DNA of 64,000 nucleotides. Source: Cepaea nemoralis. Lineage: Eukaryota > Mollusca > Gastropoda > Stylommatophora > Helicidae. The notes under the pieces are model-generated. The model made no database searches. It worked only from the letters and a program-made list of their open reading frames with translations, and was not told where the DNA came from. The translations under genes were made by a program, and so were the position numbers. The stretch spans positions 682,001 to 746,000 of the forward strand of contig JACEFZ010018349.1 in NCBI GenBank assembly GCA_014155875.1. Reading direction: 5' to 3'. Shown here piece by piece: positions 1 through 49,875 of this stretch; position 1 is the first letter of the stretch, and each line of letters begins with the position of its first letter.

Positions 1-480
1 CCATCCCACATCCCACTGTAGAGTACCCGGAAACGACAGAGCTGATCAATTGGCTAAGGAAGGAGCCAAAGAAGAACAGCCTGATGTGCCCGTTACATAC
101 CACCAAAAGAAAAGAATGATCAAATCAGTCAGAAAGCCACCAAAACCTGCTCAAGATGACTACCACGTTATGGATAGACCAGAACAAGTCATTATTCTGC
201 GCCTCAGAACAGGACACAATAGATTACGCAACCACATGTATACAAAATTCAAGATTGGTGAAACAGCCATGTGCACATGTGGATTGGCGTCGCAGACAGC
301 AGAGCACATACTCCAAGACTGCCCAAAATATAACATATCTAGGCAAACCTTCTGGCCTAGAGAGACAACAGTGGAAGATAAACTCTATGGACCGCTGTGT
401 GAACTGAAAAAGACAGTTCAATTCATACAAGAGACAGCATTGCAGTTATAGACATATTTCAAGCGAACGAAAGAAGAAGA
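1..480 (+). mobile_element. LINE-R 3' end (RNase H-type non-LTR retrotransposon, 5'-truncated by window edge)
   Basis: An open frame at 50-451 encodes 133 residues with the C-terminal signature of RNase H-bearing LINEs: a LRTGHNRLRNHMYTKF stretch, then a Cys-x-Cys...His...Cys motif (CTCG...AEHILQDCPKY). A stop follows. About 20 bp later there is an AAGAAGAAGAAG tail at 467-479, preceded by GCGAACGA. Upstream sequence runs off the window. Related copies lie at 12155-12440, 13455-13745, 33636-35295 and 38870-40010. It is a fragment of a mobile element and not a host gene. Confidence 0.8.
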
Positions 481-1669
481 AGAAGCCTGGGCAGCAGGCT
501 CATCAGTCTGATATTTTCAACTTCCTTGTGTACACGGCTCCAAGGTTTTTGCCATCCTTCCAGAAGGCTAGATATGCGATCCACTACTTGAAAATCAATG
601 AGTATACTGTCCTGTTCTCATTTTGTACCCCCACATAAATCAAAACAGTCTGTTTGAGGCGAGCGACATAAATTTAAGTCACTCTACCCCCAAGATTACA
701 TGAGATGACCAATTACCTCCCATTAAATTTCTTCTTGGTTCATGCTGAAATAACATCTACCATGTAAAGTCTGCATATCTTAGTTTTCCCTCACCATGAA
801 ACAAACCCAATGATGACCCCCACTTGAAAACTGGTCACGAAAATCAATAACTGATGCAAAAACAAGCTAAACTGAATGTTAACAAATGTCACTGACATTA
901 CAGGAGCCGGGGCTCCAGCTGTCATCATTACTTCATGTGGTACATGGAGTTCATCAACTGGCTTTTTTTTCCTGATCTCACTTTGGTGAAAGTAACAATA
1001 TCCAGATATCAGTAGGATATTAATTAGGTACCTACCTTTTTAGATAGCAATGTAGACAAAGACTGGAGAACAGATATAGGAAATTAAGAATCTAAAAGGC
1101 AAGACGAGCTTTTATAGCACTAGGCAGAAGACTGCCGTGCGTTGGGTTTTTTATAAAATGGTATGAGTGCCGGTCGTTTAGAAAACAGTGGCAAACTACT
1201 GAACGTAAACTTGCCAATAAATCACAAACAGCCAAAAAATGCTGGGGTTGGCTGCGAGGTCCTGTAAAGGATATGCAACTAATTTTTCAACATAGATTAA
1301 ATTTAGCACCAACCTTATATTCAATTCTAATATTGACTAAGTACCACTATGTGCATCCAAACACAGAACGACTAAAGGATTATAAATAAACTTCAAACAT
1401 TCACTTATTGTTGCTTGTGCAAATTACAAACACTAAACTGGTATGACAGAATCACCAATGTCATGGACAGGAACTAAACAAATACCAGTGAACCACGAGG
1501 AAGACAAGACGCTGGCACTGAACAAGGCATACACAGAGAGCTGGACGCTCAAAGCGGGGGAGGTTCAACAGTCCTGTCAGGATATGTACAAAGCAGTGAG
1601 CTGTGGTTGGGTTATGTTCAGGTTAAATAAATGTCTGAAACTGAACAACAAATACAATCAGCTACTGAC
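481..1669. other. Gene-free stretch with a partial SINE-B
   Basis: No exon was recognised here. Positions 1146-1280 are the 3' two thirds of a plus-orientation SINE-B (GTATGAGTGCCGGTCG to the AAGGATATGCAACTAA end). The last HMGB exon, for the acidic tail, would be expected in this stretch or beyond the window edge. I see no run of GAA/GAT codons on the minus strand that would encode it. Confidence 0.5.
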
Positions 1670-5249: not shown

Positions 5250-5905
5250 GCTTCTTCTTCTTCTGCGTTCATCCAGTTTTTTTTTTTTCCGGACGTGATT
5301 GCATTGTGCCTGTTTACAGCAGAGCTGCGTTCTTGCGCCGTTAGGTCGACACATCAGACTTCTGCGGGCATTTGTTGACCAGGTTAACCTTCCCGGGGGT
5401 TTCTTAAGACGTTTGACTCTCACTGTTGTGGTGTTATCCCCCATCCTAGCTGGCCCATATAGAACAGCCAAAGACATCCTGGTCAGCCCTCAAGGGAAGG
5501 CAGGGGCAGACCATGGGCATTCCCCGCCATCCAAGGAGGCTTCCATACTTGCAGAGCCGACACATAGCGCTCTGGTACTGGGCTCACCCAAGGAATCATC
5601 ACGTCCTGCACATGGCTGCTTAGCCTCACTTCCGTATATTGGGCCTTACTTTCACCATAGGCTGTTCTTCCGGAAACCAGAAGAATGCAGTCTGCAGATG
5701 ACATCCACACAGTGAGCTTTCGATTCGGATTTTCCACGTAATGGATTTGCTATCCAAGCAATATTCCATTTCGTGCCACTAGGACACTTTTTCCACCTTT
5801 CATGACGCCCACACAGTGAGCTTTTGATTCGGACTTTCCACGTAATGGATTTGCTATCCAAGCAATATTCCATTTCATGCCCTTGGGACGCTTTTGTAAC
5901 CGACA
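5250..5905 (-). mobile_element. Element D copy, 5'-truncated, with internal duplication
   Basis: Starts on the plus strand with CTTCTTCTTCTTCTGCGTTC, the reverse complement of the (AAG)n 3' tail. It follows the D consensus (GCAGAGCTGCG, CCGACACATAGCGCTCTGG). A segment beginning CACACAGTGAGCTTT occurs twice in tandem, about 100 bp apart (5707-5808 and 5809-5905). The small overlapping ORFs here are not conserved genes. Confidence 0.8.
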
Positions 5906-6133
5906 TACCTGTGGTATGAAGTGTGGCATTCTAAATAGACCTTGATGCAATCATGTGGTATTTAATTTCAGCTGTTAACTAGAGCACAGTTTACATAAAA
6001 TCTGCTCAAACCCTGATCACATTACCCCAGTCATGTATGTAACTGCAGATTTTTACTAAGCATAAAAACATCATTCATATTAATACAATTGTGTTATAAA
6101 TAAGAACAAGACACAGAGCATAAATAAATATAC

Positions 6134-11050: not shown

Positions 11051-11159
11051 TGCTTACCTAGTATCGTTGAATACTTTGCCAAATCCAACAAATCATTAGC
11101 AAATCTACAAATGGCTTTGCATAAGTTGCACGAGCGCCTATACTCCAAAGGGAAAACCA

Positions 11160-11703
11160 GAGATGAAAAACGTCCCAGAGCCACGAAATGGAATATTGCT
11201 TGGCTAGCAAATCCATTATGTGGAATGTCTGCATCGAAAGCTCACTGTGTGGATGCCATCTGCAAACTATCTCTCCTGGTTTCCTGAGAATCAATCTGTG
11301 GTGGACGAGAGGCCCAATATACGGAAGTGAGGCTAAGCAGCCGTGTGCAGGACATGACGATTCCTTGGGTGAGCCCAGCACCAGAGCGTTATGTACCGGC
11401 TCTGCAATAACGGAAGCCTCCTTGGATGGTGGGGAATGCCCAGGGTCTGCCCTTGTCTTCCCTTGAGAGCTGACCGTTATATCTCCGTCTGATCTAAATG
11501 GACCAGTTGGAATGGGGATAACACCACAACAGTGAGAGTTAACCGCCCTACGAAACACCCTGGAAGGTTAACTCGGCCAATAAATGCCTGCAGAAGTCGA
11601 ATGTGTCGGCCAAAAGGTGCAAATATCGCTGCTTTGCTGTTAACAGGCACAACGCAATTACGTCCAAAAAATATTCAGAATGAACGCAGCAGAAGAAGAA
11701 GTG
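11160..11703 (+). mobile_element. Element D copy, 5'-truncated
   Basis: Plus-sense D sequence ending AGAATGAACGCAGCAGAAGA and an AAG tail near 11700. It contains GCCAATATACGGAAGTGAGG and CATTCGACTTCTGCAGGC-type D blocks. It lies between the two arms of the inverted repeat. Confidence 0.78.
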
Positions 11704-20826: not shown

Positions 20827-20989
20827 CCTAAATGGTTTCAGCACAGAAGATGATAGTCATTCCAACCGTGACCAAGTTTGTTGTCTGATAGACAGTAGTG
20901 GGAAATGTCAAAGGCAAGCTGGCAATGCCAGTTACAACAAGCGTATTCAGAACCAGGCAAGGAAGTTGAAGTTAACAAGAGATGAGAAG
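20827..20989 (+). CDS. SAP30L: SAP30/SAP30L-like protein, first recognised exon (zinc-finger part)
   Basis: Encodes a subunit of the Sin3-histone deacetylase corepressor, a nuclear protein that binds DNA and phosphoinositides and bridges to Sin3. After one split-codon base there are 54 codons reading LNGFSTEDDSHSNRD, then CCLIDSSGKC and AGNASYNKRIQNQARKLKLT, the start of the SAP30-type C2CH zinc finger. Human SAP30L begins MNGFSTEED, but here the codon before NGF is CTA and no in-frame ATG lies upstream. The sequence just before is a good acceptor (ctccctcccacag). The start codon is therefore probably in an unidentified upstream exon ending in phase 1. The donor is AAG/GTATGA at phase 0. The two nearest known relatives, SAP30 and SAP30L, cannot be firmly separated, but the start favours SAP30L. 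Confidence 0.88.
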
Positions 20990-21589
20990 GTATGATATTG
21001 TGATGATTAGTGGCCTTGTTTCTGCCATCATGGTGCTAGCATGTCTTTTCATTCAGCAGTGCTCATACCTTGAGATCCCCTTAAGCTCTTCCAAGATATT
21101 TTATTTTACTTAATAGTTTTAGTTTAGCTGGACAAGTCTACTTGCTCTCGGGATCTTTCTCAGACTTTGATTCTAGTTTTGTATTGTTATTCGGGGTGAT
21201 AGCTTTGACTGAGTGGTTACATTTTTTTGGGTCTCAGGCTCAAAAGGTGCAGGGTTAATTCACTGCTTAGGGCTGGTAATCTTTCCAAGAACCAGTTATA
21301 CTGCACATATCCCTTGTCTCTTGGGTAGAGACATCGGATGCCTAGTCTTCTCAGATAAGGGTGAAACAACAGGAGGCAAATTGTGCATGTTACAAATTCT
21401 ACAACAGTTGGAAATTGCAAAGAGTAGGCCATAAGGCTGCTGTCCTGACAAAATTATTACTAAAGAAAATCCATTTACCTTGGATGAAATCTGCCTTGAG
21501 GAACCATATCTTACACAAATGTCTGACTTTGACCTTTAAGGTGTATAACTATGAAATAAGCAAAGTATAAACTCTCAAGTTAGTATGCC
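20990..21589. other. SAP30L intron, no repeat assigned
   Basis: Start of the 4.2-kb intron. Small ORFs occur on both strands in 21.2-21.4 kb, but none shows conserved features. Confidence 0.4.
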
Positions 21590-23640: not shown

Positions 23641-23776
23641 TCCTTCCTATACAATTGCCGGCACCCATTTTGTGAGGCGGAGTTGAGTCACGAGTCGTAT
23701 GATCATGTAAAAATCCCACCTTGAGAAGAATTTGAACCCAGGACAGGTGAGTACACTAGCCATTATGCTGCCACAA
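23641..23776 (-). mobile_element. tRNA-derived SINE, interrupted target of element D
   Basis: On the minus strand: GCAGCATAATGGCTAGTGTA, CTGGGTTCAAATTC (box B) and CAAAATGGGTGCCGGC. This resembles SINE-C heads. Its outer edge is the insertion site of the element D copy that follows. Confidence 0.55.
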
Positions 23777-23788
23777 ATCCTGGTATTT

Positions 23789-25108
23789 CTTCTTCTTCTT
23801 TTCGTTCATCCGGAGTGTTTTTTCAGATGTGATTGCGGTGTGTCTGTTATGCGCCCTTGGGCCGAGACCCGTAGGCCAACACATCCGACGATAGCGTGCT
23901 TTTTTTGACCAGGTAGCATTCCTGGGAGACTCTCACTTTTGTGGTGCCATCTACAACCCAGCAGACCAAATTGGAACGGTCGAAGACAACGGTCATCCCT
24001 CAAAGGAAGGCAGGGGCAGTCCATAGCATTTTCCGCCATCCAAGGTTGCTTCCATAGTTGCAGGGCCGACACATAGCGCCCTGGTCCTGGGCTCACCGAG
24101 GGAATCGTCACGTCCTGCTCATGGCTGCTTTAAATCCTCACTTCAATATATTGGGCGTTCCTTCACCACGGGCCGCTCCCGCACAAACCAGGCCAGTCTG
24201 CAGACGGTATCCACTCAGCGAGTTTTCGGTTCGGACATGTGCTTGTCTCTGTGCCCTTCAGAGCTGTTCCAGGCACGAAGGACATTAGGAGAACTACCTA
24301 GTCAGAGCTGTTCCGAGCAAGAGCGGCATTCGGAAACAAGGTAGATTTTCCTAGCACTAGGGAAGACTAGTTAGAGCTTTTCCGGTCACGAAAGGTTTTC
24401 ACTCGGACGTAGTTGCGTAGTGCCATTTTTATTTTGCCGCCCGTAGGCTGGCACTTCGGCTTCTGCGGGTATTTTTAATGAGGTTAGCCTTCCTCAGGTT
24501 CGAGACAAGTTAGACTATTATTTCGACTTCCACACAGCAAGCTTTTCCTTTGGTCTGCCACGTAATGGATTCGCAAGCCAGGCGTTCCATTTCGTGTCAT
24601 CGAGACAATTTTCCACCTTTGACTACACTCACTCCATGAGTACGGTTAAAGACTTTCATCGGAACGTGCGACCGAGGTGTTTTTTCACCTTTTAGTACTC
24701 GCTCACGAGGTAGGCTACATGTGCTGCCTGCTCAGCACCTTACCTCCGTACAGCAGTAAGCGAGAAATGGCCAGGCCCTCTCATCCGGGGATCCCTTATA
24801 TCCCCCAGCTGAGAGCCTTTGGACAAGTATCTGAACTGGGCATGTAGCGTGCCCAGTATCTCACCTCCATTTATCGGTGGAGGCGTTTGTGTAAGTATCT
24901 GGACCAAGATTGTGGCTTCGTGCGCCGGAGCTTAAATTTTGACTGCTATCCTCAGTCTTCCTGCAGAGCAGCAGGTTGTGTCTCTCTTAGTCTGGTCCCT
25001 ATCCAATATGCTGTCCGATATGTAGTTTTTCATCCATCGGCAAGCACATGGGGTCGATGGGACACGCAAGCTCCTCAACCACGGCAAGGTGGAGACACAT
25101 CGGGAGAG
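23789..25108 (-). mobile_element. Element D, both ends present, internally shortened, 12-bp target-site duplication
   Basis: ATCCTGGTATTT at 23777-23788 and 25109-25120 brackets 1320 bp. The left edge CTTCTTCTTCTTTTCGTTCA is the reversed AAG tail. The right edge is the reversed 5' end (AGGTGGAGACACATCGGGAG). Relative to the 1.66-kb copies at 28646-31983 it lacks part of the interior. Only 42 bp separate the right duplication from the next SAP30L exon. No ORF longer than about 100 codons is present. Confidence 0.93.
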
Positions 25109-25162
25109 ATCCTGGTATTTGAAGTGGCACCTTGTAAAATGATATATTTGTATCCTATTTAG

Positions 25163-25282
25163 AGCTCACACAACTACATCTGTGACTATCACAAGACACA
25201 GATACAGAATATTCGGACAAAAAGGAAGCGTAAGGACAGTGAAGATGATCAGTTACAATACGGAGCTGAAGAAATCATGGAG
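25163..25282 (+). CDS. SAP30L: SAP30/SAP30L-like protein, exon 2 (zinc finger end, basic region)
   Basis: Forty codons in phase 0 at both ends: [20 protein letters not shown] followed by RKRKDSEDD and an acidic tail. ICDYH supplies the last Cys and His of the C2CH zinc finger begun in the previous exon. The KRKRK cluster is the nuclear-localisation and DNA/lipid-binding segment, followed by the acidic central region typical of SAP30L. The acceptor is tttgtatcctatttag and the donor is GAG/GTATGT. An element D insertion ends 42 bp before this exon, close to where a branch point would be expected. Confidence 0.93.
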
Positions 25283-25309
25283 GTATGTTCACTATATTAT
25301 TCTTCTTTT

Positions 25310-26150
25310 GTCTGTTATCATAATTGAGGCATGAGCCATAAAATCAACTCACACATAGCCATCCTATCTTTTGCTCTCTCCTGCAGTCCCCCTCCATGTC
25401 CTCCATATAGTTCAAATCTGTCTGTAATTATTTTTTTCTCCATGTATTTTTAGCTCTCCATGTATTTTTAGCTATCCCACTATTGTTTTATAGGTTCCAT
25501 ACTAGGGAGTGTCTAGTTTTATTATCATCATGTCTTCTCAGTGTGTGTCCTGTCTAGCACCAGTGTCTTTTACTCACTGATTTTTATTGTCTTCTCCTTG
25601 AGAATAACATTGGTGATTCTGTACTACCATTTTAGTCATACTATTCTGCACAGGGCCGGTCTCTCTGGCTGTGGGGTTACAACACTTTCTCTCTGTAATC
25701 CCGTTTATCACGCAGAGTCTCGTAGCGGAGCGAGAGCTGAGGCGGTTCGACCCCCGCTCGTGACTTGCGGGATACTGAGCCGGCCGCTCAGAAAGCAATG
25801 GCAAACTACTGAGCGTAATCTTGCCAAGAGATCAACATACAGCTGAAAGATGCTGGTGTTGACAGCTAAGTCCTGTAAAGGATATGCTAAAAAAAAAAAA
25901 AATTCTGCACAGGGACCAGTTAATTAATTTTAAAAAATTTATTAGTAACTTTGTTTAGTTGTTCTCCATTCTTTGATTCATACAGTAGTACTGGTTTAAT
26001 GTTGGAGTTTAATAATTTAAGTTTGGTGCTAAGTTTAATTTCCTAAAACTTCTGCAAATTTTCCAGTTCTGTGAAAGCTCCCCTTGCTGCTTATATTGTA
26101 ATTTTAATATCTCTATCTGTTCCCTCATCTTTATCTACATTGCACCTAAA
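25310..26150 (-). mobile_element. RTE-like LINE fragment split by SINE-B
   Basis: 25310-25642 and 25915-26150 belong to the same family as 4576-4956 and 50437-50990. Shared motifs include TGAGGCATGAGCCATAAA, TCCTATCTTTTGCTCTCTCC and GTGCTAAGTTTAATTTCC. On the minus strand it corresponds to the protein end preceding a GCCTCAAT-type 3' region. Confidence 0.6.
25656..25901 (+). mobile_element. SINE-B with A tail and 13-bp target-site duplication
   Basis: Head CCGGTCTCTCTGGCTGTGGG (box A-like), GGCGGTTCGACCCCCGC (box B), body GCCGGCCGCTCAGAAAGCAA, then 14 A. ATTCTGCACAGGG flanks it at 25643-25655 and 25902-25914. It is the best evidence that SINE-B is tRNA-derived and retrotransposed. Confidence 0.93.
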
Positions 26151-26314
26151 TAGGTGTATGATTGTACCTCCTGAAGAGAATGTTCATATTTCTTTTATTT
26201 ATTTTTGTTGTTGGTAAGAGAAATTTAAATTAAAACACTTTCATTTGTTGTTGTTGTATAACCCTGTTAATTGCTTTGTTCACACTTGTATAACTTGATG
26301 TGTTGAACGTGGGT

Positions 26315-26617
26315 GTTTTTTTCTTTGGCGTTTGCCCACTTTGAACCCAAGCATAGTCCATACATGTCCTTCTACTTCTTGTGCACTGGACTGATCTTTA
26401 CATGTGGATTAGCTTTCCCTATTACCAGTGACCCTTGTCATCAGGCGAATGCACACCGACTTCAGAGGTACTTGCAATTTACATCCTCAAGTCAAGGACG
26501 AGACATCAACATTTTAGCCCAACTGACGAGTGTAGGGGTTGAAGCCACTACCTCGGCATCAGCACACTGAATTTAAAGAACGAGTGCTCTTATCCTTTTG
26601 GCCATACTGACCTCAGA
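26315..26617 (-). mobile_element. SINE-A copy
   Basis: Left edge TTTGAACCCAAGCATAGTCC, middle CAAGTCAAGGACGAGACATC, right head GGCCATACTGACCTCAGAGG. A short GTGGGTG on both sides could be a weak target-site duplication. Confidence 0.8.
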
Positions 26618-26625
26618 GGTGGGTG

Positions 26626-26849
26626 AGGTCTTGGCTCTGTCCAAGTAGGCAAGCAACATACTCATGGCAGGCATGACTCCTGAGCTCTCCAAGGGGTGAG
26701 TGCAAGACGTGGGTGCTGATTGTCTATCATCATTGTGAGGACTTGGCTCTGTCCAAGTAGGCAAGCAACATACTCATGCCAGGCATGCCCCTGAGCTCTC
26801 CAAGGGGTGAGTGCAAGACGTGGGTGCTGATTGTCTATCATCATTGTGA
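26626..26849. repeat. 112-bp tandem duplication
   Basis: Two adjacent copies of a segment containing TTGGCTCTGTCCAAGTAGGC and CAAGACGTGGGTGCTGATTG, differing at only a few positions. Confidence 0.92.
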
Positions 26850-26891
26850 GGACCTGCTGTGACTCTTTTGCAGTCTTGCGAAAAGCTAAGT

Positions 26892-27132
26892 TGCATGCCC
26901 TTTTACAGGACTTTGCAAATAACCGCACCATTTATTGGCTGTTTGTGACCTACTAGACTGTTATTATCTTCAGTAGTTTTCGTTGCTTTCTGAAAGGCCA
27001 ACTCCAATGCTATCAAAACCAATGGAAAGCGATCTGCTCCCAAATCACCTGCAGTGATTTTTGAACCCTCAACTCAGTATGTCTGGGAATTGTGAAGCTG
27101 CATTCACTAACCCCTAAGCTACAGATGCCGGC
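26892..27132 (-). mobile_element. SINE-B copy
   Basis: Left edge GCATGCCCTTTTACAGGACT, body CAGTAGTTTTCGTTGCTTTC, box B-like TGATTTTTGAACCCTCAACT on the plus reading, right edge CACTAACCCCTAAGCTACAG. Confidence 0.75.
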
Positions 27133-27226
27133 TGCGGTCTTGTAATGGGCACATCTTGAATCCTCAGCAGGCTTCATTACAGTGGACACCATGATCGATC
27201 ATCCATGAATTTATGTTTTTTTTAAA

Positions 27227-27470
27227 GTTGCATATCCCTTACAGGACATTGCAATCAACACCAGTATTTTTTAGCTATTGTTGATGTTCTTGGCAAGATT
27301 ACGCTCAGTAGTTTGCCATTGCTTTCTGAGCGACCGGCTCACATACCCTGTAAGTAACCAACGTGACACGATCAGCTGCCAGATCTCACACAGCTGTGTT
27401 CCTCATGTGTATATATGGGATTACGGAGAAAATCGTTAAAACCTTCGCCAGGGAGACCTGTCTCCATTTA
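27227..27470 (-). mobile_element. SINE-B copy next to the 21-bp minisatellite
   Basis: Left edge TTGCATATCCCTTACAGGAC, body GCTTTCTGAGCGACCGGCTC, right edge ACCTTCGCCAGGGAGACCTG. This is the same subtype as the tandem pair at 12835-13334. Confidence 0.82.
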
Positions 27471-27524
27471 TTAGACAGGTTATTTTCTGCTCAGGGTGTT
27501 CTGCATGCAGGTGAAGAGAGGTCT

Positions 27525-28645
27525 GTGTTAGTGTGCACATTGACCCTGTTAGTGTACACATTGACCCTGTTAGTGTACACATTGACCCTGTTAGTGTACA
27601 CATTGACCCTGTTAGTGTACACATTGACCCTGTTAGTGTACACATTGACCCTGTTAGTGTACGCATTGACCCTGTTAGTGTACACATTGACCCTGTTAGT
27701 GTACGCATTGACCCTGTTAGTGTACGCATTGACCCTGTTTAGTGTACGCATTGACCCTGTTAGTGTACGCATGACCCTGTTAGTGTACGCATTGACCCTG
27801 TTAGTGTACGCATTGACCCTGTTAGTGTACGCATTGACCCTGTTAGTGTACGCATTGACCCTGTTAGTGTACGCATTGACCCTGTTAGTGTACGCATTGA
27901 CCCTGTTAGTGTACGCATTGACCCTGTTAGTGTACGCATTGACCCTGTTAGTGCACGCATTGACCCTGTTAGTGTACGCATTGGCCCTGTTAGTGCACGC
28001 ATTGGCCCTGTTAGTGCACGCATTGGCCCTGTTAGTGCACGCATTGGCCCTGTTAGTGCACACATTGGCCCTGTTAGTGCACACATTGGCCCTGTTAGTG
28101 CACACATTGGCCCTGTTAGTGCACACATTGGCCCTGTTAGTGTACACATTGGCCCTGTTAGTGTACACATTGGCCCTGTTAGTGTACACATTGGCCCTGT
28201 TAGTGTACACATTGGCCCTGTTAGTGTACACATTGACCCTGTTAGTGCACACATTGGCCCTGTTAGTGTACACATTGACGCTGTTAGTGTACACATTGAC
28301 CCTGTTAGTGTACACATTGACCCTGTTAGTGTACACATTGACCCTGTTAGTGTACACATTGACCCTGTTAGTGTACACATTGACCCTGTTAGTGTACACA
28401 TTGACCCTGTTAGTGTACACATTGACCCTGTTAGTGTACACATTGACCCTGTTAGTGTAACACATTGACCCTGTTAGTGTACACATTGACCCTGTTAGTG
28501 TACACATTGACCCTGTTAGTGTACACATTGACGCTGTTAGTGTACACATTGACCCTGTTAGTGTACATATTGACCCTGTTAGTGTACACATTGGCCCTGT
28601 TAGTGTACACATTGACCCTGTTAGTGTACACATTGACCCTGTTAG
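27525..28645. repeat. 21-bp minisatellite, about 53 copies
   Basis: Unit ACATTGACCCTGTTAGTGTAC. The unit length is a multiple of three, so several frames stay open for hundreds of codons (for example repeats of LVYTLTL) and mean nothing as proteins. Variants come in runs: TACACATTGACC first, TACGCATTGACC about 27660-27960, then CACGCATTGGCC, CACACATTGGCC, TACACATTGGCC to about 28215, and TACACATTGACC again. Element D interrupts the array and seven more units follow at 31984. Confidence 0.95.
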
Positions 28646-31600
28646 TCTCCCCCGATGTGTCTCCACCTTGACGTGGTGGGGGAGCTTGCGTGTCCCATCG
28701 ACCCCATTTGCTTGCCGATGGGTGAAAAATTACATATCGGACAGCTTATGGGATAGGGACCAGACTAAGAGAGACACAACCTGCTGCTCTGCAGGTATAG
28801 ACTGAGGATAGCAGTCAAAATTTAAAACACGTGCACGAAGGCGGAATTCCTTGGTCCGGACAAAACTCTTAAGGCTCCCTGTCGAGGGCTGTGGCTGAAC
28901 GCCTCTAAGCCACAAACCCTCGGATCTGAGAGCCAGGCCGATACGCGTCTACCGGAAAATAGAAACGTGATACAGAGCAAGCTACATGCTCAGGTCTGAT
29001 ACATGTTCGAAGGCTCTCAGCTGGGGGATATGAGGGATTCCCGAATGAGAGGGCCTGACCGTCTCTCGCTCACTGCTGCACGAAGGTAAGGTGCTGAGCC
29101 GGCAGCACATGTAGCCTACCTCATGAGCGAGTACAAAAAAGTCAGAAAAGTGCCCCAGTCGAAGGACATGGTTACGGAAACTCTGTATCTAACTCATAAA
29201 GAGTGTAGACAAAAGTGGAAGAACGTCTCAACAACGCGAAATGGAACGCACGGCGAGCGAACCTATTTCGTGGTCTGAAGTCACAAGCAAAAGCTTACCG
29301 AGTGGATGTCGCTCGCAGTCTGACCGCTCCTGGTGTGTGCCTGAGCGATCAGTGGCAAGCGGGTTGCCCAACACATGGAAGTGAGGAACTAAAGCAGTCA
29401 TGAGCAGGACGTGGAAACTCCTTGGGTGAGCCCAGTCTCAGAGCAATATGTGCCGGCTCTGCAATTATGGAAGCCTCCTTGGATAGCGAGATAATGCCCA
29501 TGGTCTGCCCCTGCCTTCCCTTGAGGGTTGACCATTTTGTCGTTGACCGTTCTATCCTGACCAGCTGAGATGTGGGCGGCATCACAACATTAAGTCTAAC
29601 GTGCCTCAAAACCCGAGGAAGGCTAATCTCATTAAAAAATGCCCGCCGAAGCCGGCAGTGCTGGCCTACGGGTGGCAAAATAAAAACTGGCACTACACAT
29701 TTTACGTCCGAGTGAAACGTCTCGTCCATTTGTCTCTCGTGCTAGGAACAGCTCTGACTACCTAGTTTCCGAATGCCGCTCTTGCTCGGAACAGCTCTGA
29801 CTAGGTAGTTTTCCGAATGTCCGCCGTGCCTGGAACAGCTCTGAAGGGCGCAAGGACAAGCACATGTCCGAAAACTCGCTGAGTGGATACCATCTGCAGA
29901 CTTGTCTGGTTTGTGCAGGAACGGCCCGTTGTGAAGGAAAGCCCAATATATTGAAGTGAGGATTTAAAGCAGCCATAAGCAGGACGTGACGATTCCCTCG
30001 GCTAGCCCAGAACCAGGGCGCTATGTGTCGGCCCTGCAACTATGGAAGCAACCTTGGATGGCGGAAAATGCTATGGACTGTCCCTGCCTTCCTTTGAGGG
30101 ATGACCGTTGTCTTCGACCGTTCTCTTCTTCTTCTTCTTTGCGTTCATCCGGAGTGATTTTTTCAGATGTGATTGCGGTGTGTCTGGTTAGGCACCCTCG
30201 GGTCGAAACCCTCAGGCCAACACATCCGACTTTTAGCGTGCATTTTTGACCAGGTTAGCAATCCTGGGAGACTCTCACTTTTGTGGTACCGTCCACATCT
30301 CAGCTGGTCTAGTTGGAACAGTCGAAGACTACACGGTCATCCTTCAAGTGAAGGCAGGGACAGTCCATAGCATTTTCCGCCATCCTGGGTGGCTTCCATA
30401 ATTGCAGAGCCGGCACATAACGCTCTGGTGCTGGGTTTACCTGAGGGAATCGTCACGTCCTGCTCATGGCTGTTTTAATTCCTCACTTCAATATATTGGG
30501 CATTTCGCTCGCCCTGGGCCGTTCCTGCACAAACCAGTCAGCTCTGCGGTTGGTTTCCACTAAGCGAGTTTTCGGACATGTGCTTGTCCCTGTACCCATC
30601 AGAGCTGTTCCAGGCACGGCGGACATTCGGAAAAGTACCTAGTCAGAGCTGTTCCGAACAAGAGCGGCATTCGGAAACTAGGTAGTCAGAGCTGTTCCTA
30701 GCACGAGAGACATTCGGACGAGACATTTCACTCGGACGTAATTGCGTAGTGTCAATTTTTAGTTTGCCACCCGTAGGACGACACTTCCGACTTCCGGCGG
30801 GCATTTTTTAGTGAGGTTAACCTTCCTCTGGTTTCGAGGCACGTTAGACTGTTGTGATGTCGCCCACATCTCAGCTGGTCAAGATAGAACGACCAACGAC
30901 ATCGCGGTCGGCCCTCAAGGGAAGGCAGGGGCAGACAATGGGCAGTCCCTCGCTATCCAAGGAGGCTTCCATAATTGCAGAGCCGGCACATATTGCTCCG
31001 AGACTGGGCTCACCCGAGGAGTTGCCACGTCCTGCTCATGGCTGCTTTAGTTCCTCACTTCCATGTATTGGGCATCTCGCTTGCCACTGGTCGCTCAAGT
31101 GAGCTCCAGGGGCGGTCAGACTGCGGGCGACATCCACTCGGTAAGCTTTTGCTTTTGACTTTGGACCACGCAATAGGTTCGCTCGCCGTGCGTTCCATTT
31201 CGCGTTATTGAGACGTTTCTCCACTTTTATCTACACTCTCTATGAGTTAGATACAGACAGTTTTCGTAACCATTTCCTTCGACTGGGGCATTTTACTGAC
31301 TTTTTGTACTCGCTCACGAGGTAGGCTACACGTGCTGCCGGCTCAGCACCTTACCTTCGTGCAGCAGTCAGTGAGAAACGGCCAGGCCATCTCATCCGGG
31401 AATCCAACATATCCCTCAGCTGAGAGCCTTCAAACAAGTGTCAGAACTGGGCATGTAGCTTGCTCAGTATCTCGATTCCAATTTTCGGTAGGTGGATATC
31501 GGCCCGACTCTCAGATCCGAGGGTCTGTGGCTTAGAGGCGTTCAGCCTAAACCCTCGACAGAGAGCTTTAGAGTATTGTCCGAAACAAGAACTGCCTTCA

Positions 31601-31983
31601 TGCGCCTGATTTAAACTTTTGACTGCTATCCTCAGTCTCCTGCAGAGCAGCAGGTTGTGTCTCTCTTAGTCTGGTCCCTATCCCATACGCTGTCCGATAT
31701 GTAGTTTTCACCCATCGGCAAGCACATGGGATCAACGGGACACTCAAGCTCCCCCACCACGGCAAGGTGGAGACACATCGGGGGAGGTCTTCGACCGTTC
31801 CATCCTGGCCAGCTGGGTTGCAGACGGCACCGCAAAAGTGAGAGTCTCCCAGGAATGCTACCTGGTCAAAAAAGCACGCTAAAGTCGATGTGTTGGCCTA
31901 CGGGTCTCGGCCCAAGGGCGCATAACAGACACACCGCAATCACATCTGAAAAAAACACTCCGATGATCGTAAAGAAGAAGAAG
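28646..31983 (+). mobile_element. Element D, full-length outer copy inserted in the minisatellite
   Basis: The outer copy is 28646-30123 plus 31801-31983, 1661 bp when the inner copy and one duplication are removed. The left junction follows ACCCTGTTAG (28636-28645) and the right junction precedes ACCCTGTTAG (31984-31993). This fits a 10-bp target-site duplication but cannot be told apart from the array period. The 5' end has strong stems, and the 3' end is CTCCGATGATCGTAAAGAAG with an AAG tail. The longest frames are short, for example MEERLNNAKWNARRANLFRG (62 codons at 29215). A counterpart of this frame exists in the inner copy at 31224-31036. Confidence 0.9.
30124..31786 (-). mobile_element. 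Element D, full-length inner copy nested in the outer copy
   Basis: 1663 bp in the opposite orientation. The left edge TCTTCTTCTTCTTCTTTGCG is the reversed AAG tail; the right edge is the reversed 5' end. GTCTTCGACCGTTC flanks it at 30110-30123 and 31787-31800, a 14-bp duplication of outer-copy sequence. The near-identical length to the outer copy indicates both are complete. Confidence 0.93.
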
Positions 31984-32112
31984 ACCCTGTTAGTGTACAC
32001 ATTGACCCTGTTAGTGTACACATTGACCCTGTTAGTGTACACATTGACCCTGTTAGTGTACACATTGACCCTGTTAGTGTACACATTGACCCTGTTAGTG
32101 TACACAATGACC
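31984..32112. repeat. 21-bp minisatellite, right-hand remnant
   Basis: About six to seven more units of the array that stops at 28645, beginning ACCCTGTTAGTGTACAC. It shows that the element D complex split a once continuous array. Confidence 0.93.
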
Positions 32113-32314
32113 CTGCCACATCAACACCTTTGAATACCAGACACTTTGATTTCATATACGATGGTCCTGTTTCATCACTTGGGAGTTCATATTCTGGAGA
32201 GTATCAAACAGACTAAACATTGATGTTATGCAAGGTTATACAGGAAATATTTAAAAATTATGAACAGGACCAAACAAAATATTTGGATAAAGCTACTCAC
32301 CTCTTAGTGAACCA

Positions 32315-32530: not shown

Positions 32531-32781
32531 CTTAGCGAATACACCTCACGGCAAGTAAAAGGGCCCTTTGCTTATTTACTTACTTCCTCATTTCTGGACA
32601 TTTATGAATAAGTTTGTAACATTTGTTTGAAACTGAATTTTTACAATAAAACAATTTGTTATTTAATATCATGTGAAAACTATAAGAGTTAAGCAGTTTG
32701 ATTTTACAGTTAATATGCATGCAGCATACAGTAACTCATAGGTCGTTTGTTATATATATATATTCTACATATTTTTTCTAG

Positions 32782-32880
32782 ATTGATTTCTATCAGATGC
32801 CAGTTAACACTCTGAGACGTTACAAAAGATATTATAAACTACCTACACGACCAGGACTCAGTAAGGCTCAGTTGGCTGAT
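32782..32880 (+). CDS. SAP30L: SAP30/SAP30L-like protein, exon 3 (Sin3-interaction domain)
   Basis: Thirty-three codons, phase 0 at both ends: [20 protein letters not shown] then [13 protein letters not shown]. This is the first helix and loop of the Sin3-binding domain (human: [20 protein letters not shown]), the most conserved part of the family, which contacts the PAH3/HDAC-interaction region of Sin3. Splice sites are atattttttctag and GTAAGT. The upstream 7.5-kb intron carries the minisatellite and the nested element D pair. Confidence 0.95.
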
Positions 32881-33635: not shown

Positions 33636-35295
33636 CTTCTTCTTTTGTTCGCTTGAAATTTGTCTATAACTGCAATGTTGTGTACATTTAACTGTCTTCT
33701 GTAGTTAACTCAGTGGTCCATAGAGATTATCTTCCACTGTTGTTTCTCTAAGCCAGAAACTTTGCCTAGATATGTTATATTTTGGGCAGTCTTGGAGTAT
33801 GTTCTTTTGTTTTGCGCTCGCTCACTTTGAACTCAAGCGTAGTCTATACACACTATTTACATTAGTGATGGACTGAATTTTTCATGTGGATTAGCTTTCC
33901 CTATTAACAGTGTCCTTCGCCATCAGGCAAACCCACTCCGACTTCAGAGGTACTTGTAAATTAATCCCCAAGTCAAGGATGACAGGTCAAAATTTTAGTC
34001 CAACTGTCCTTGTAGGGGTTGAACCGCTTACCTCGGCACCAGCACAATGGATGTTTAAGAACACGCGTTCTTACCCATTCGGCCATGCGGATCTGCCATG
34101 GAGTATGTGATCTGCTATCTGCAATGCCAGTCCACATGTGCACATGGCTGATTCGCCAATCTTGAATTTCGTATACGTGTAGTTGCGCAATCTTTATTTC
34201 CTGTTCTGAGGTGCAGAATAATGATTTGTTCTGGTCTGTCCATAAGGTGGTAGTCATCTTGAGCAGGTCTTGGTGGCTTTCTGAATGATTTGATCATTCT
34301 TTTCTTTTGGTAGTATGAAAGGGTACATCAGGTTGTTCTTCTATTGCACCTTCCTTAGCCAATCGATCAGCTCTGTTTCCAGGTACTCCACAATGGGATG
34401 GTATCCAATGTATGGTGACCTTAAATTGGCTGTAAAGTTAAGAAAGTAGTGTCCATAGTACTGGAAATTTCCTGAACAGGAGTGCCTCGGGTACTGATTT
34501 TGCATCAGAGAGAAGCAATAGCACCACAGATTGTGTACCAAGGCTGGTATTTAGTAAGTTCTCTATTGCTATCTTGATAGCCTCAATTTCAGCATCATAG
34601 TTATGGCAGTACTTTCCTGTTGGTACTCTGGCCATGTCCCTAGTATTATTTGGGTATTCTATGTGCACTCCCGCTCCTTCATTTCGAACAGCATTTTGTG
34701 CTGACCCATCTGTGTAGGTTCGGATCCAGAGGTCCTGTGAGTATTCTTCATCAAGGAAACTGAGAATGGCTGTTCTATATTGTACACAGTTCTGTCGATT
34801 ATTTCTCTCACTTTTGTCTGGATTTGTAGTGTTAGTCTATGTTCCTCTTTCCATGGAGTTCATTCTGAAATAGTTTTTCAGGAGGATACCAACTGTGGGC
34901 AGCTCAGTGGTTTCTCTGCAGAGTCATTTGGCCTGGTGGATAAAACTGCAGCATACCTAGGTTTTCATATCTGTTCTTCATAGGATGGCCTGGCATGCTG
35001 AGGAACTTTTCTGCTTGTATTAGCGTTTTTGTAAATCTGTGCTCTCTCAGAACTTGTGTCAGCATGGGAACTCTTTGGTGTCTTCTGTGGATGGAGATAG
35101 AGCATGTTTGGAAATGTCCGGAGTGCATTGATATTGATTCTGTTACCAAGTATTTTAGATTTAAGTGCTCTTAAACTCATACATTTAATTATTGTGATTA
35201 TAACATGTGAATGTTCTTTCAAGACAGTCTTGCTATTCTTGAGAACATGGTCTTGCCCTAAATTTAAAAAAAAGATCAACCTGCTGCATTGCAGC
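33636..35295 (-). mobile_element. LINE-R copy, RNase H region, split by SINE-A
   Basis: The left edge TCTTCTTTTGTTCGCTTGAA is the reversed 3' end. On the minus strand the C-terminal motif, then RNase H pieces are readable (KYCHNYDAEIEAIKIAIE and LLLSDAKSVPEAL, the Asp/Glu-bearing segments). Stops and frame changes are frequent. SINE-A at 33803-34099 interrupts it. The far (5') boundary near 35295 is approximate. Confidence 0.7.
33803..34099 (-). mobile_element. SINE-A inserted in LINE-R, 9-bp target-site duplication
   Basis: GGAGTATGT at 33794-33802 and 34100-34108 flanks a full SINE-A on the minus strand (left CGCTCGCTCACTTTGAACTC, right CATTCGGCCATGCGGATCTG). Joining the two flanks restores continuous LINE-R sequence. 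Confidence 0.9.
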
Positions 35296-35701
35296 AGTGA
35301 TAGGACATTCAAAGGCTAACTGTAGCAGAAGCAGGTCTGGTAGACTGAAATGAACTCAGTTACAGATCTGATTATTCAGGAGAAACATCTTTACACCTAA
35401 TCTTACTCCCTTAGTTGCAAGCCATATTTAGGGCTCAGCTGACCTGAATGCCAATGCATCAGACTTCAGAGTTAAGACTCATACTTCCAGAGGATTAACA
35501 ACAAACCAACCAGTTGATAAAGTTATGTCATCTCCAGGGTGATCCTGTTTGGGAAAATATCCATGTTCTACCACTGCCATGGATGGAGCCACAGACTACC
35601 ATGTTAGTTCAAAGGAAAACTAACTACTGTGCATCACGGCTCTGAACTCACTAGATAAAGGTTAAATTCATCATAACCATGTTCTTTCATTGATTTTGCA
35701 G
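35296..35701. other. SAP30L intron, nothing recognised
   Basis: No exon, SINE or LINE signature was identified. Confidence 0.4.
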
Positions 35702-35809
35702 GTGGTTGCCAGCCATTTCAAGACAATCCCTGTTATGGAGAAGGAGACATTGCAGTTGTTTTTCTACACTGCCAAAGCAAAGAAATTTGATAATAAGGAC
35801 TCGTCTTAG
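35702..35809 (+). CDS. SAP30L: SAP30/SAP30L-like protein, last coding exon
   Basis: Thirty-five codons and a TAG stop: VVASHFKTIPVMEKETLQLF followed by FYTAKAKKFDNKDSS. It completes the Sin3-interaction domain (human: VSRHFRNIPVNEKETLAYFIY). The acceptor is ttgattttgcag in phase 0. The visible protein is 162 residues over four exons, close to the 183 of human SAP30L. The missing part is at the N-terminus, where human SAP30L has a variable Ala/Pro-rich segment. No obvious AATAAA was seen immediately downstream, so the transcript end is undetermined. Confidence 0.93.
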   Translation: MVASHFKTIPVMEKETLQLFFYTAKAKKFDNKDSS

Positions 35810-40358: not shown

Positions 40359-40496
40359 CTTCTTCTTCGTTCATCCGGAGTGTTTTTTTGGACGTAAATA
40401 CGTTGTGCCTGTTTACAGCAGAGCTGCGTTACTTGTGCCTTTAGGCTGACACATCCAACTTCTGTAGGCGTTTGTTGACTGGGTTAACCTTCCCAG
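40359..40496 (-). mobile_element. Element D, 138-bp 5'-truncated copy, 12-bp target-site duplication
   Basis: GTAAGTATGTGT at 40347-40358 and 40497-40508 flanks the last 138 bp of element D (left edge CTTCTTCTTCGTTCATCCGG). This shows 5' truncation from the AAG tail, as expected for target-primed reverse transcription. Confidence 0.93.
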
Positions 40497-42661: not shown

Positions 42662-42969
42662 AGTTAGAGCGCTGTGTGTCGGATCTGCAATTATGGAAGC
42701 CACCCAGGATAGCGGAAAATGCTATGGACGGTCCCTGCCTTCCGTTGAGGGATATGACCGTGAAGTCTTCGACTGTTCCAGCTTGACCAGCTGGGAGGTG
42801 GACGGTACCACACAAGTGAGAGTCTCCCAGGAATGCTAACCTGGTCAAAAATGCACGCTAAAAGTCGGATGTGTTGACCTAAGGGTTTCGATCCAAGGGT
42901 GCCTAACGAGACACAACGCAATCACATCTGAAAAAACACTCCGGGTGAACGCAAAGAAGAAGAAGAAGA
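42662..42969 (+). mobile_element. Element D copy, 5'-truncated
   Basis: Plus-sense D sequence ending CTCCGGGTGAACGCAAAGAA and an AAG tail. It contains GAGAGTCTCCCAGGAATGCT and TGGTCAAAAATGCACGC. Confidence 0.85.
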
Positions 42970-49315: not shown

Positions 49316-49875
49316 ATCTTCTTCTGCATTCATCGGGAGTTTCTTTTCGGACGTGATTGTGTGCCTGTTTAACAGCAGAGCTGCGTTCTTGCGCCGTTAG
49401 GCCAACACATCCGACTTCTGCGGGCATTTGTTGACCAGGTTAACCTTCCCCGGGGGTTTCGTAAGACATTTAACTCTCACTGTTGTGGTGTTATCCCCCA
49501 TCCCAGCTGGCCCATTTAGAACAGCCAAAGACATAATGGTCAGCCCTCAAGGGAAGGCAGGGGCAGACCATGGGCATTCCCCGCCATCCAAGGAGGCTTC
49601 CATAATTGCAGAGCCGACATATATAGCAATTTGGTACTGAGCTCACCCAAGGAATCGTCACTTCCTGCACATGGCTGCTTAGCCTCACTTCCGTATATTG
49701 GGCCTTCCGTTCACAACAGGCTGTTCCTCCGGAAACCAGAAGAATGCAGTCTGCAGATAACATCCACACAGTGAGCTTTCGATTCGGACTTTCCACTAAT
49801 GGATTTGCTATCCAAGCAGATATTCCGTTTCGTGCCACTAGGACACTTTTTTCATCTTTGATGACTCCCACACAA
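49316..49875 (-). mobile_element. Element D copy, 5'-truncated
   Basis: Left edge TCTTCTTCTGCATTCATCGG. D blocks GTTAGGCCAACACATCCGAC and GAGGCTTCCATAATTGCAGA follow. It resembles the copy at 5250 but without the internal duplication. Confidence 0.83.

Follow-up and report, generated by a model that had tools for sequence, protein, structure and literature searches.

Element D is probably a non-autonomous LINE-type retroelement of about 1.66 kb headed by a candidate HDV-like ribozyme, and in the window (the whole 64,000-nucleotide stretch of stylommatophoran DNA that was analysed) one copy of D lies head-on inside another within a 21-bp minisatellite. The D-within-D nesting is real and as such an ordinary event. 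No long ORF is present in D, the longest stop-free sense frame being 74 aa in the inner and 113 aa in the outer copy; a simple 3′ tail, variable 5′ truncation and flanking duplications complete the features of a LINE-dependent retroelement. The tail is of the AAG type in all seven copies examined, with only two full AAG units in s2, and the copies sit at unrelated sites, the insertion flanks differing from one copy to the next. Coordinates are collected in Table 1.

Table 1. Features of the nested block, its host gene and related elements in the window
Feature	Position	Strand	Basis
LINE-A fragment 3′ end, ...GCGAACGA(AAG)5, possible autonomous partner	1..485	+	
s1, 5′-truncated related element, AAG tail, flanks GCATCAAGGTCT/GCATCAAGCTCT	5252..5936	-	
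s3, 5′-truncated related element, 5′ limit approximate	11158..11702	+	
SAP30-family exon	20879..20992	+	tblastn
D3, third copy to have a 5′ end, some 340 nt less than inner, duplication AAATACCAGGAT	23789..25108	-	
SAP30-family exon, matched part, frame runs on downstream	25169..25234	+	tblastn
Left part of 21-bp minisatellite, about 53 units (53.3)	27526..28646	.	TRF
GACCCTGTTAGT, outer-copy flank, candidate target duplication, ambiguous in array	28635..28646	+	second copy 31983-31994
Outer element D, 5′ part	28647..30123	+	reading, alignment
Candidate HDV-like ribozyme, outer copy	28647..28778	+	
Inner target duplication GTCTTCGACCGTTC, left	30110..30123	+	direct reading
Complete inner copy of element D, antisense to SAP30 and outer copy	30124..31786	-	alignment, tblastn
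Candidate HDV-like ribozyme, inner copy	31656..31786	-	
Inner target duplication, right	31787..31800	+	direct reading
Outer element D, 3′ part including (AAG)n tail	31801..31983	+	reading, alignment
Right part of 21-bp minisatellite, about 6 units (6.3), unit as left part	31983..32115	.	TRF
SAP30-family exon after nested block	32782..32880 (match to 32883)	+	tblastn
Second fragment of LINE-A, with an RNase H match under the Pfam cut-off, ending ...GCGAACAA(AAG)3	33636..34836	-	
D4, 5′-truncated, inner copy's subfamily, flanks ATTTACAGTTA/ATTTATAGTTA	42666..42969	+	
s2, 5′-truncated related element, duplication ATATGCAGACAAAT	49317..49874	-	

Nested insertion in a SAP30-family intron

The initial annotation had placed the nested block in an intron of SAP30L, which is borne out at the level of a SAP30-family intron; tblastn finds the three exons of Table 1 and a fourth match at 35693-35785, all on the + strand, with match ends that lie a few bases off the true exon ends. 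Because these matches flank the block, the block is intronic, in an intron starting after 25234 and ending at 32781. The joined SAP30 translation has its best match in Candidula unifasciata (83% over 121 aa); the GC content of the window is 41.0%, and that given for the C. unifasciata assembly is 40.69% (PMC8496239). The inner copy and D3 are antisense to the SAP30-family gene, while the outer copy is sense.

The exact 14-bp duplication first noted on each side of the inner copy is present as GTCTTCGACCGTTC, and both copies are complete, as had been claimed; the alignment proposed at that stage, of the reconstructed outer copy against the inverted inner one, runs from end to end at 89.2% identity (1,663 nt inner, reverse complemented; 1,661 nt outer, rejoined with the earlier cut), with 1,469 matches, 177 mismatches and 32 gap columns. 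Mismatches thus fall at 177 of the 1,646 sites aligned, a divergence of about 11%. The nesting is beyond chance because an exact 14-bp repeat adjoins both ends of a full-length relative. A large imperfect palindrome with arms of about 1.5 kb had also been described and is confirmed, with arms of 1,477 bp (28647-30123) and 1,471 bp (30316-31786) around a spacer of 192 nt; the inverted arms are 89.6% identical (1,311 matches, 152 mismatches, 22 gap columns) and contain 19 perfect runs of at least 21 nt.

The extent proposed for the outer copy holds, with its start corrected from 28646 to 28647, since the array includes the T at 28646 and C is the first base of the inner copy and of D3 as well. 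Its location inside the 21-bp array also stands, whereas ACCCTGTTAG at both junctions is weak evidence; alone it is not proof of a target duplication, because the phase of a period-21 array alone yields a shared flank of 0-20 bp. The flank GACCCTGTTAGT, found at both junctions, is 11-12 bp long, as its G can be assigned to the tail, and this length fits the flanks of 11-14 bp at other copies. Continuity of the array phase once one flank is removed is true by construction and hence provides no evidence. A 111-bp tandem repeat (26623-26853; 2.1 copies, 96% matches) lies about 0.7 kb before the minisatellite.

Flank duplications were read for the inner copy (14 of 14 positions), D3 (12/12), s2 (14/14), s1 (11/12), D4 (10/11) and the array-ambiguous outer copy, the fragments near 40.4 and 41.0 kb being left out; one was looked for at s3 and not found. 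Over the last 300 bp at the 3′ end, the inner copy is grouped with D4, and the outer copy with D3, at 19 sites; no site favours either other split and 3 are unresolved. The inner copy accordingly belongs to a different subfamily from the outer copy and was not copied from it.

Inverted pairs of 1.5 kb are a recognised assembly hazard, and the palindrome might on that account be a fold-back artefact of assembly or library preparation, or an inverted duplication made by repair with no retroposition at all. This is highly improbable, because the copies are 11% divergent and carry subfamily-specific sites, the inner copy siding with D4 at 19 sites and with the outer copy or D3 against D4 at none; the inner copy furthermore has its own 3′ tail and its exact 14-bp duplication. 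The order of array, outer copy and inner copy that had been proposed is upheld by the layout, the alignment and the inner duplication, and its first step has a competitor, in which the outer copy came first and the array grew round it. Minisatellites do grow, the flank shared within an array is uninformative and the two parts are unequal (53 units on the left, 6 on the right); like units nevertheless lie on both sides of the element, which one-sided growth would not produce, and this later growth is judged quite improbable, the insertion of D into a pre-existing array being preferred.

D is considered, from comparison of its parts, to be a composite or partial dimer of two modules related to shorter AAG-tailed elements; nt 720-941 and 1295-1512 of the outer copy are 78% alike, and its nt 644-1033 and nt 1223-1577 both show a match to the short s elements. 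Sub-repeats of 43-44 bp lie between these two modules in the outer copy. The likeness of s1 to s2 and s3 begins at about 5895; near the 5′ end of s1 (5698-5895, - strand) is a 94-bp direct duplication, 90% identical, which is perhaps a template jump.

The motif GAACG is found at most 10 nt upstream of 7 of the window's 16 runs of at least three AAG units, namely those of the inner copy, D3, D4, s1, a fragment at 40367 and LINE fragments at 471 and 56041; it is absent from this position in the outer copy and in the LINE-A fragment at 33644. The 3′ sequence common to D and two LINE fragments is short, being limited to GAACG and the AAG tail, and hints at a 3′ end common to D and a local LINE.

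A candidate ribozyme at the 5′ end of D

The 5′ end of D looks like an HDV-like ribozyme fold with a catalytic cytosine, and is regarded as a candidate. In the outer copy the fold consists of P1 (28647-28653/28678-28684), P2 (28656-28663/28771-28778), P3 (28665-28667/28675-28677), L3 (28668-28674), a P4 domain (28685-28764) and J4/2 CTAAGA (28765-28770); the inner copy has P1 at 31786-31780/31755-31749, P2 at 31777-31770/31663-31656 and J4/2 at 31669-31664. P1, CTCCCCC/GGGGGAG, starts at the first base of the element (28647, 31786) in two of three copies; D3 fails P1 through two mismatches and keeps P2 and J4/2. P3 is ACC/GGT and L3 is TTGNCGT with its U and G five apart, the P1′ strand directly follows P3′, and J4/2 CTAAGA is followed by GAGACACA, which pairs with TGTGTCTC as P2 in the outer copy, the inner copy and D3. 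By eye, P1.1 has a single possible G-C pair, which is unscored; a P1.1 of one or two pairs is described for HDV-like ribozymes in PMC4908430, and the L3 U/G pair is described in PMC3774820 and PMC3386971. J4/2 of such ribozymes opens with the catalytic C, and activity is reported to be abolished by its change to U (PMC10879173); the HDV-like ribozyme of R2 is given as having a P1 of 6-7 bp and a variable P4 (PMC3774820).

The catalytic C lies within a 49-nt block that is identical between the inner and outer copies, and CTAAGA is kept in D3. Across the ribozyme domain (nt 1-132) D3 is 92% and 93% identical to the inner or outer copy; among the other bins with more than 8 sites, 17 of 20 fall below 92% (73-89%) and three near the 3′ end reach 92-96%, conservation thus extending beyond the ribozyme domain too.

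A descriptor of the fold (P1 of 7 bp, P3 of 3 bp, a 7-nt L3 in which U and G are five apart, P1′ directly adjoining P3′, J4/2 CNRA and P2 of at least 6 bp) has two matches with the catalytic C on both strands of the 64 kb, at 28647(+) and 31786(-), and both start at the 5′-end bases that the flanks define independently. As the descriptor was settled after the viral comparison described below, the scan tests consistency and was not blind; what gives it weight is that both matches begin at the base given by the flanks. D3 is missed because of its two P1 mismatches. Forty shuffled windows contain one match in total; with T in place of the catalytic C there is one match (36750) and with G none, while A recovers the same two loci via AAGA inside CTAAGA. 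A loose test of J4/2 and P2 is passed by 19-23% of 20,000 shuffles per copy, but shuffles rarely pass it in the strict CNRAGAG form (25, 34 and 28 of 20,000). Another register, with P2 as GATGTGT/ACATATC, contains no catalytic C and was dropped after comparison with the phage-like relatives; P1/P2/P3 fits in that register occurred in 4.2% of 3,000 shuffles for the outer copy, 4.6% for the inner copy and 1.5% for D3.

It is also conceivable that D is a non-autonomous LINE-type element whose HDV-like fold is fortuitous or long dead, its 5′ end being set by a promoter. Rfam is silent, the window having no match at the gathering threshold and the 5′ ends of the outer and inner copies no HDV-like match with E up to 10; as single strands the three 5′ ends fold in an unexceptional way (z -2.06, -1.02 and -0.84), though by a method blind to pseudoknots; P1 is lost in D3, and P1/P2/P3 fits in the discarded register arose in 1.5-4.6% of shuffles. 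Such a reading would leave as coincidence the fact that the two window-wide matches coincide to the base with two element starts defined independently, and it sits poorly with a catalytic C inside the identical block, with the CTAAGA retained by D3 and with a J4/2 that is as in covarying phage-like relatives; it is considered rather unlikely, and a ribozyme-headed D is preferred.

Phage-like relatives of the fold

Across 25 viral-contig loci there are 29 occurrences of the core CCACCTTGNCGTGGTGG. Eight of the 29 are framed by P1, P2 and J4/2, all of them in the IMG/VR contigs L001, L126, L131 and L142, with CTAAGAG, CCGAGAG or CCAAGAG as J4/2; the other 21 lack the full set, so that the fold is found in 4 of the 25 loci and is absent from 21. 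The heptamer CTAAGAG is common to D and five of the eight. Six of the eight are distinct, because two in L142 repeat two in L126, and among these six P1 and P2 change yet still pair. A similar descriptor applied to 1,296,628 bases of viral loci has 15 matches with C, none of them outside these four loci, the corresponding controls being 2 with T, 4 with G and 13 with A.

These matches number four in L001, four in L126, two in L131 and five in L142, on one strand in each locus (starts include 4404-, 6439- and 6859- in L142 and 9113- and 10388- in L126), and pairing is kept in P1, P2 and P3 although their sequences vary. At least 11 of the 15 are placed, as judged by eye, in the gap before a same-strand ORF, two of them starting directly after a stop codon; three L142 matches lie in a stretch without ORFs of at least 110 aa. 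Matches of phage or transposon type were obtained for three of ten ORFs scanned in the viral loci. A tRNA was found in none of L001, L126, L131 and L142, and the viral HDV-like matches may be mRNA-processing leaders, unlike the tRNA-linked theta ribozymes. The only Rfam hit in the four loci is a near-threshold Hammerhead type II at L131:9794-9854 (36.8 bits; Rfam threshold 37), about 1.6 kb from an HDV-like candidate.

Searches of prokaryote genome contigs gave 0 matches for two core patterns, and the core with TTGCGTG gave 0 in viral contigs. The pattern CTCCCC..CCACCTTG has at least 123 matches in at least 121 viral loci; a nearby GGGAG is seen only in L001 and L108 among the matches listed, and L108 has no match to the viral-loci descriptor.

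Known systems, proposed mechanism and significance

Four known systems come closest to D. The L1Tc/NARTc/SIDER elements of trypanosomatids are described as carrying the Pr77 HDV-like ribozyme at their very 5′ end (PMC4035085), and resemble D as a non-LTR family with non-autonomous partners whose RNA is cut just upstream of nucleotide 1; D differs in its animal host, its sequence and its tail, and has a ribozyme that is a candidate only, with one signature found where SIDER2 is described with two. R2, as presented in PMC3774820, resembles D in having an HDV-like fold at its 5′ end or close to it, a P1 of 6-7 bp, a variable P4, the catalytic C and the G of L3; R2 is 28S-specific and protein-encoding, whereas D has no long ORF and occupies unrelated sites with duplications. 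D was accordingly rejected as an R2 element, as its flanks differ between copies and it lacks an ORF of its own of any length. In theta and minimal HDV-like phage ribozymes the catalytic C is given as the first base of J4/2, as in D, and the phage-like loci used as templates for D resemble them; theta ribozymes adjoin tRNAs, which the four phage-like loci lack, and D is a retroelement (PMC10879173). No tRNA was found by ARAGORN in 23700-32200, a program that would miss degenerate tRNA-like heads. In SINE/LINE partnerships the non-autonomous element has a simple tail in common with its LINE; D departs from these in that result and in the shortness of its LINE-shared 3′ part. The literature searched, within the terms used, yielded no paper on an HDV-like ribozyme in a gastropod retrotransposon.

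It is hypothesized that, in its stylommatophoran host, D is mobilised by a LINE and inserted by target-primed reverse transcription. The candidate ribozyme would cut D RNA from a longer read-through host transcript and so fix its 5′ end at nucleotide 1, as R2 (PMC3774820) and L1Tc (PMC4035085) RNAs are reported to be cut out by their own ribozymes; the LINE protein would then recognise the 3′ end of D and reverse transcribe it at the nick. Copies that have a 5′ end would begin at one base and be full length owing to this self-cleavage. One copy entered the minisatellite in the SAP30-family intron in the sense orientation, and a copy of another subfamily later entered it head-on, the nested structure being a by-product of the two insertions. 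Such nesting is expected in a genome like that of C. unifasciata, whose assembly is reported to contain 34% transposable elements, with LINE at 25% (PMC8496239).

A working outer ribozyme would be sense in the SAP30-family intron, and the inner copy would supply the complement of that ribozyme to the same transcript, about 3 kb farther downstream. The two copies could in principle form a cut-or-fold device, in which fast folding of the ribozyme would cut the pre-mRNA intron and slow folding would give a 1.5-kb RNA hairpin hiding the ribozyme; such a device is improbable, and an effect on SAP30 of a sense ribozyme with an antisense copy is unlikely.

The ribozyme reading offers a mechanistic reason for both copies being full length to the base, and D would represent a new, ribozyme-headed element of an already known kind. 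If the ribozyme cuts, ribozyme-headed non-autonomous elements would extend to land snails, and introns with sense D copies would be candidate self-cleaving introns.
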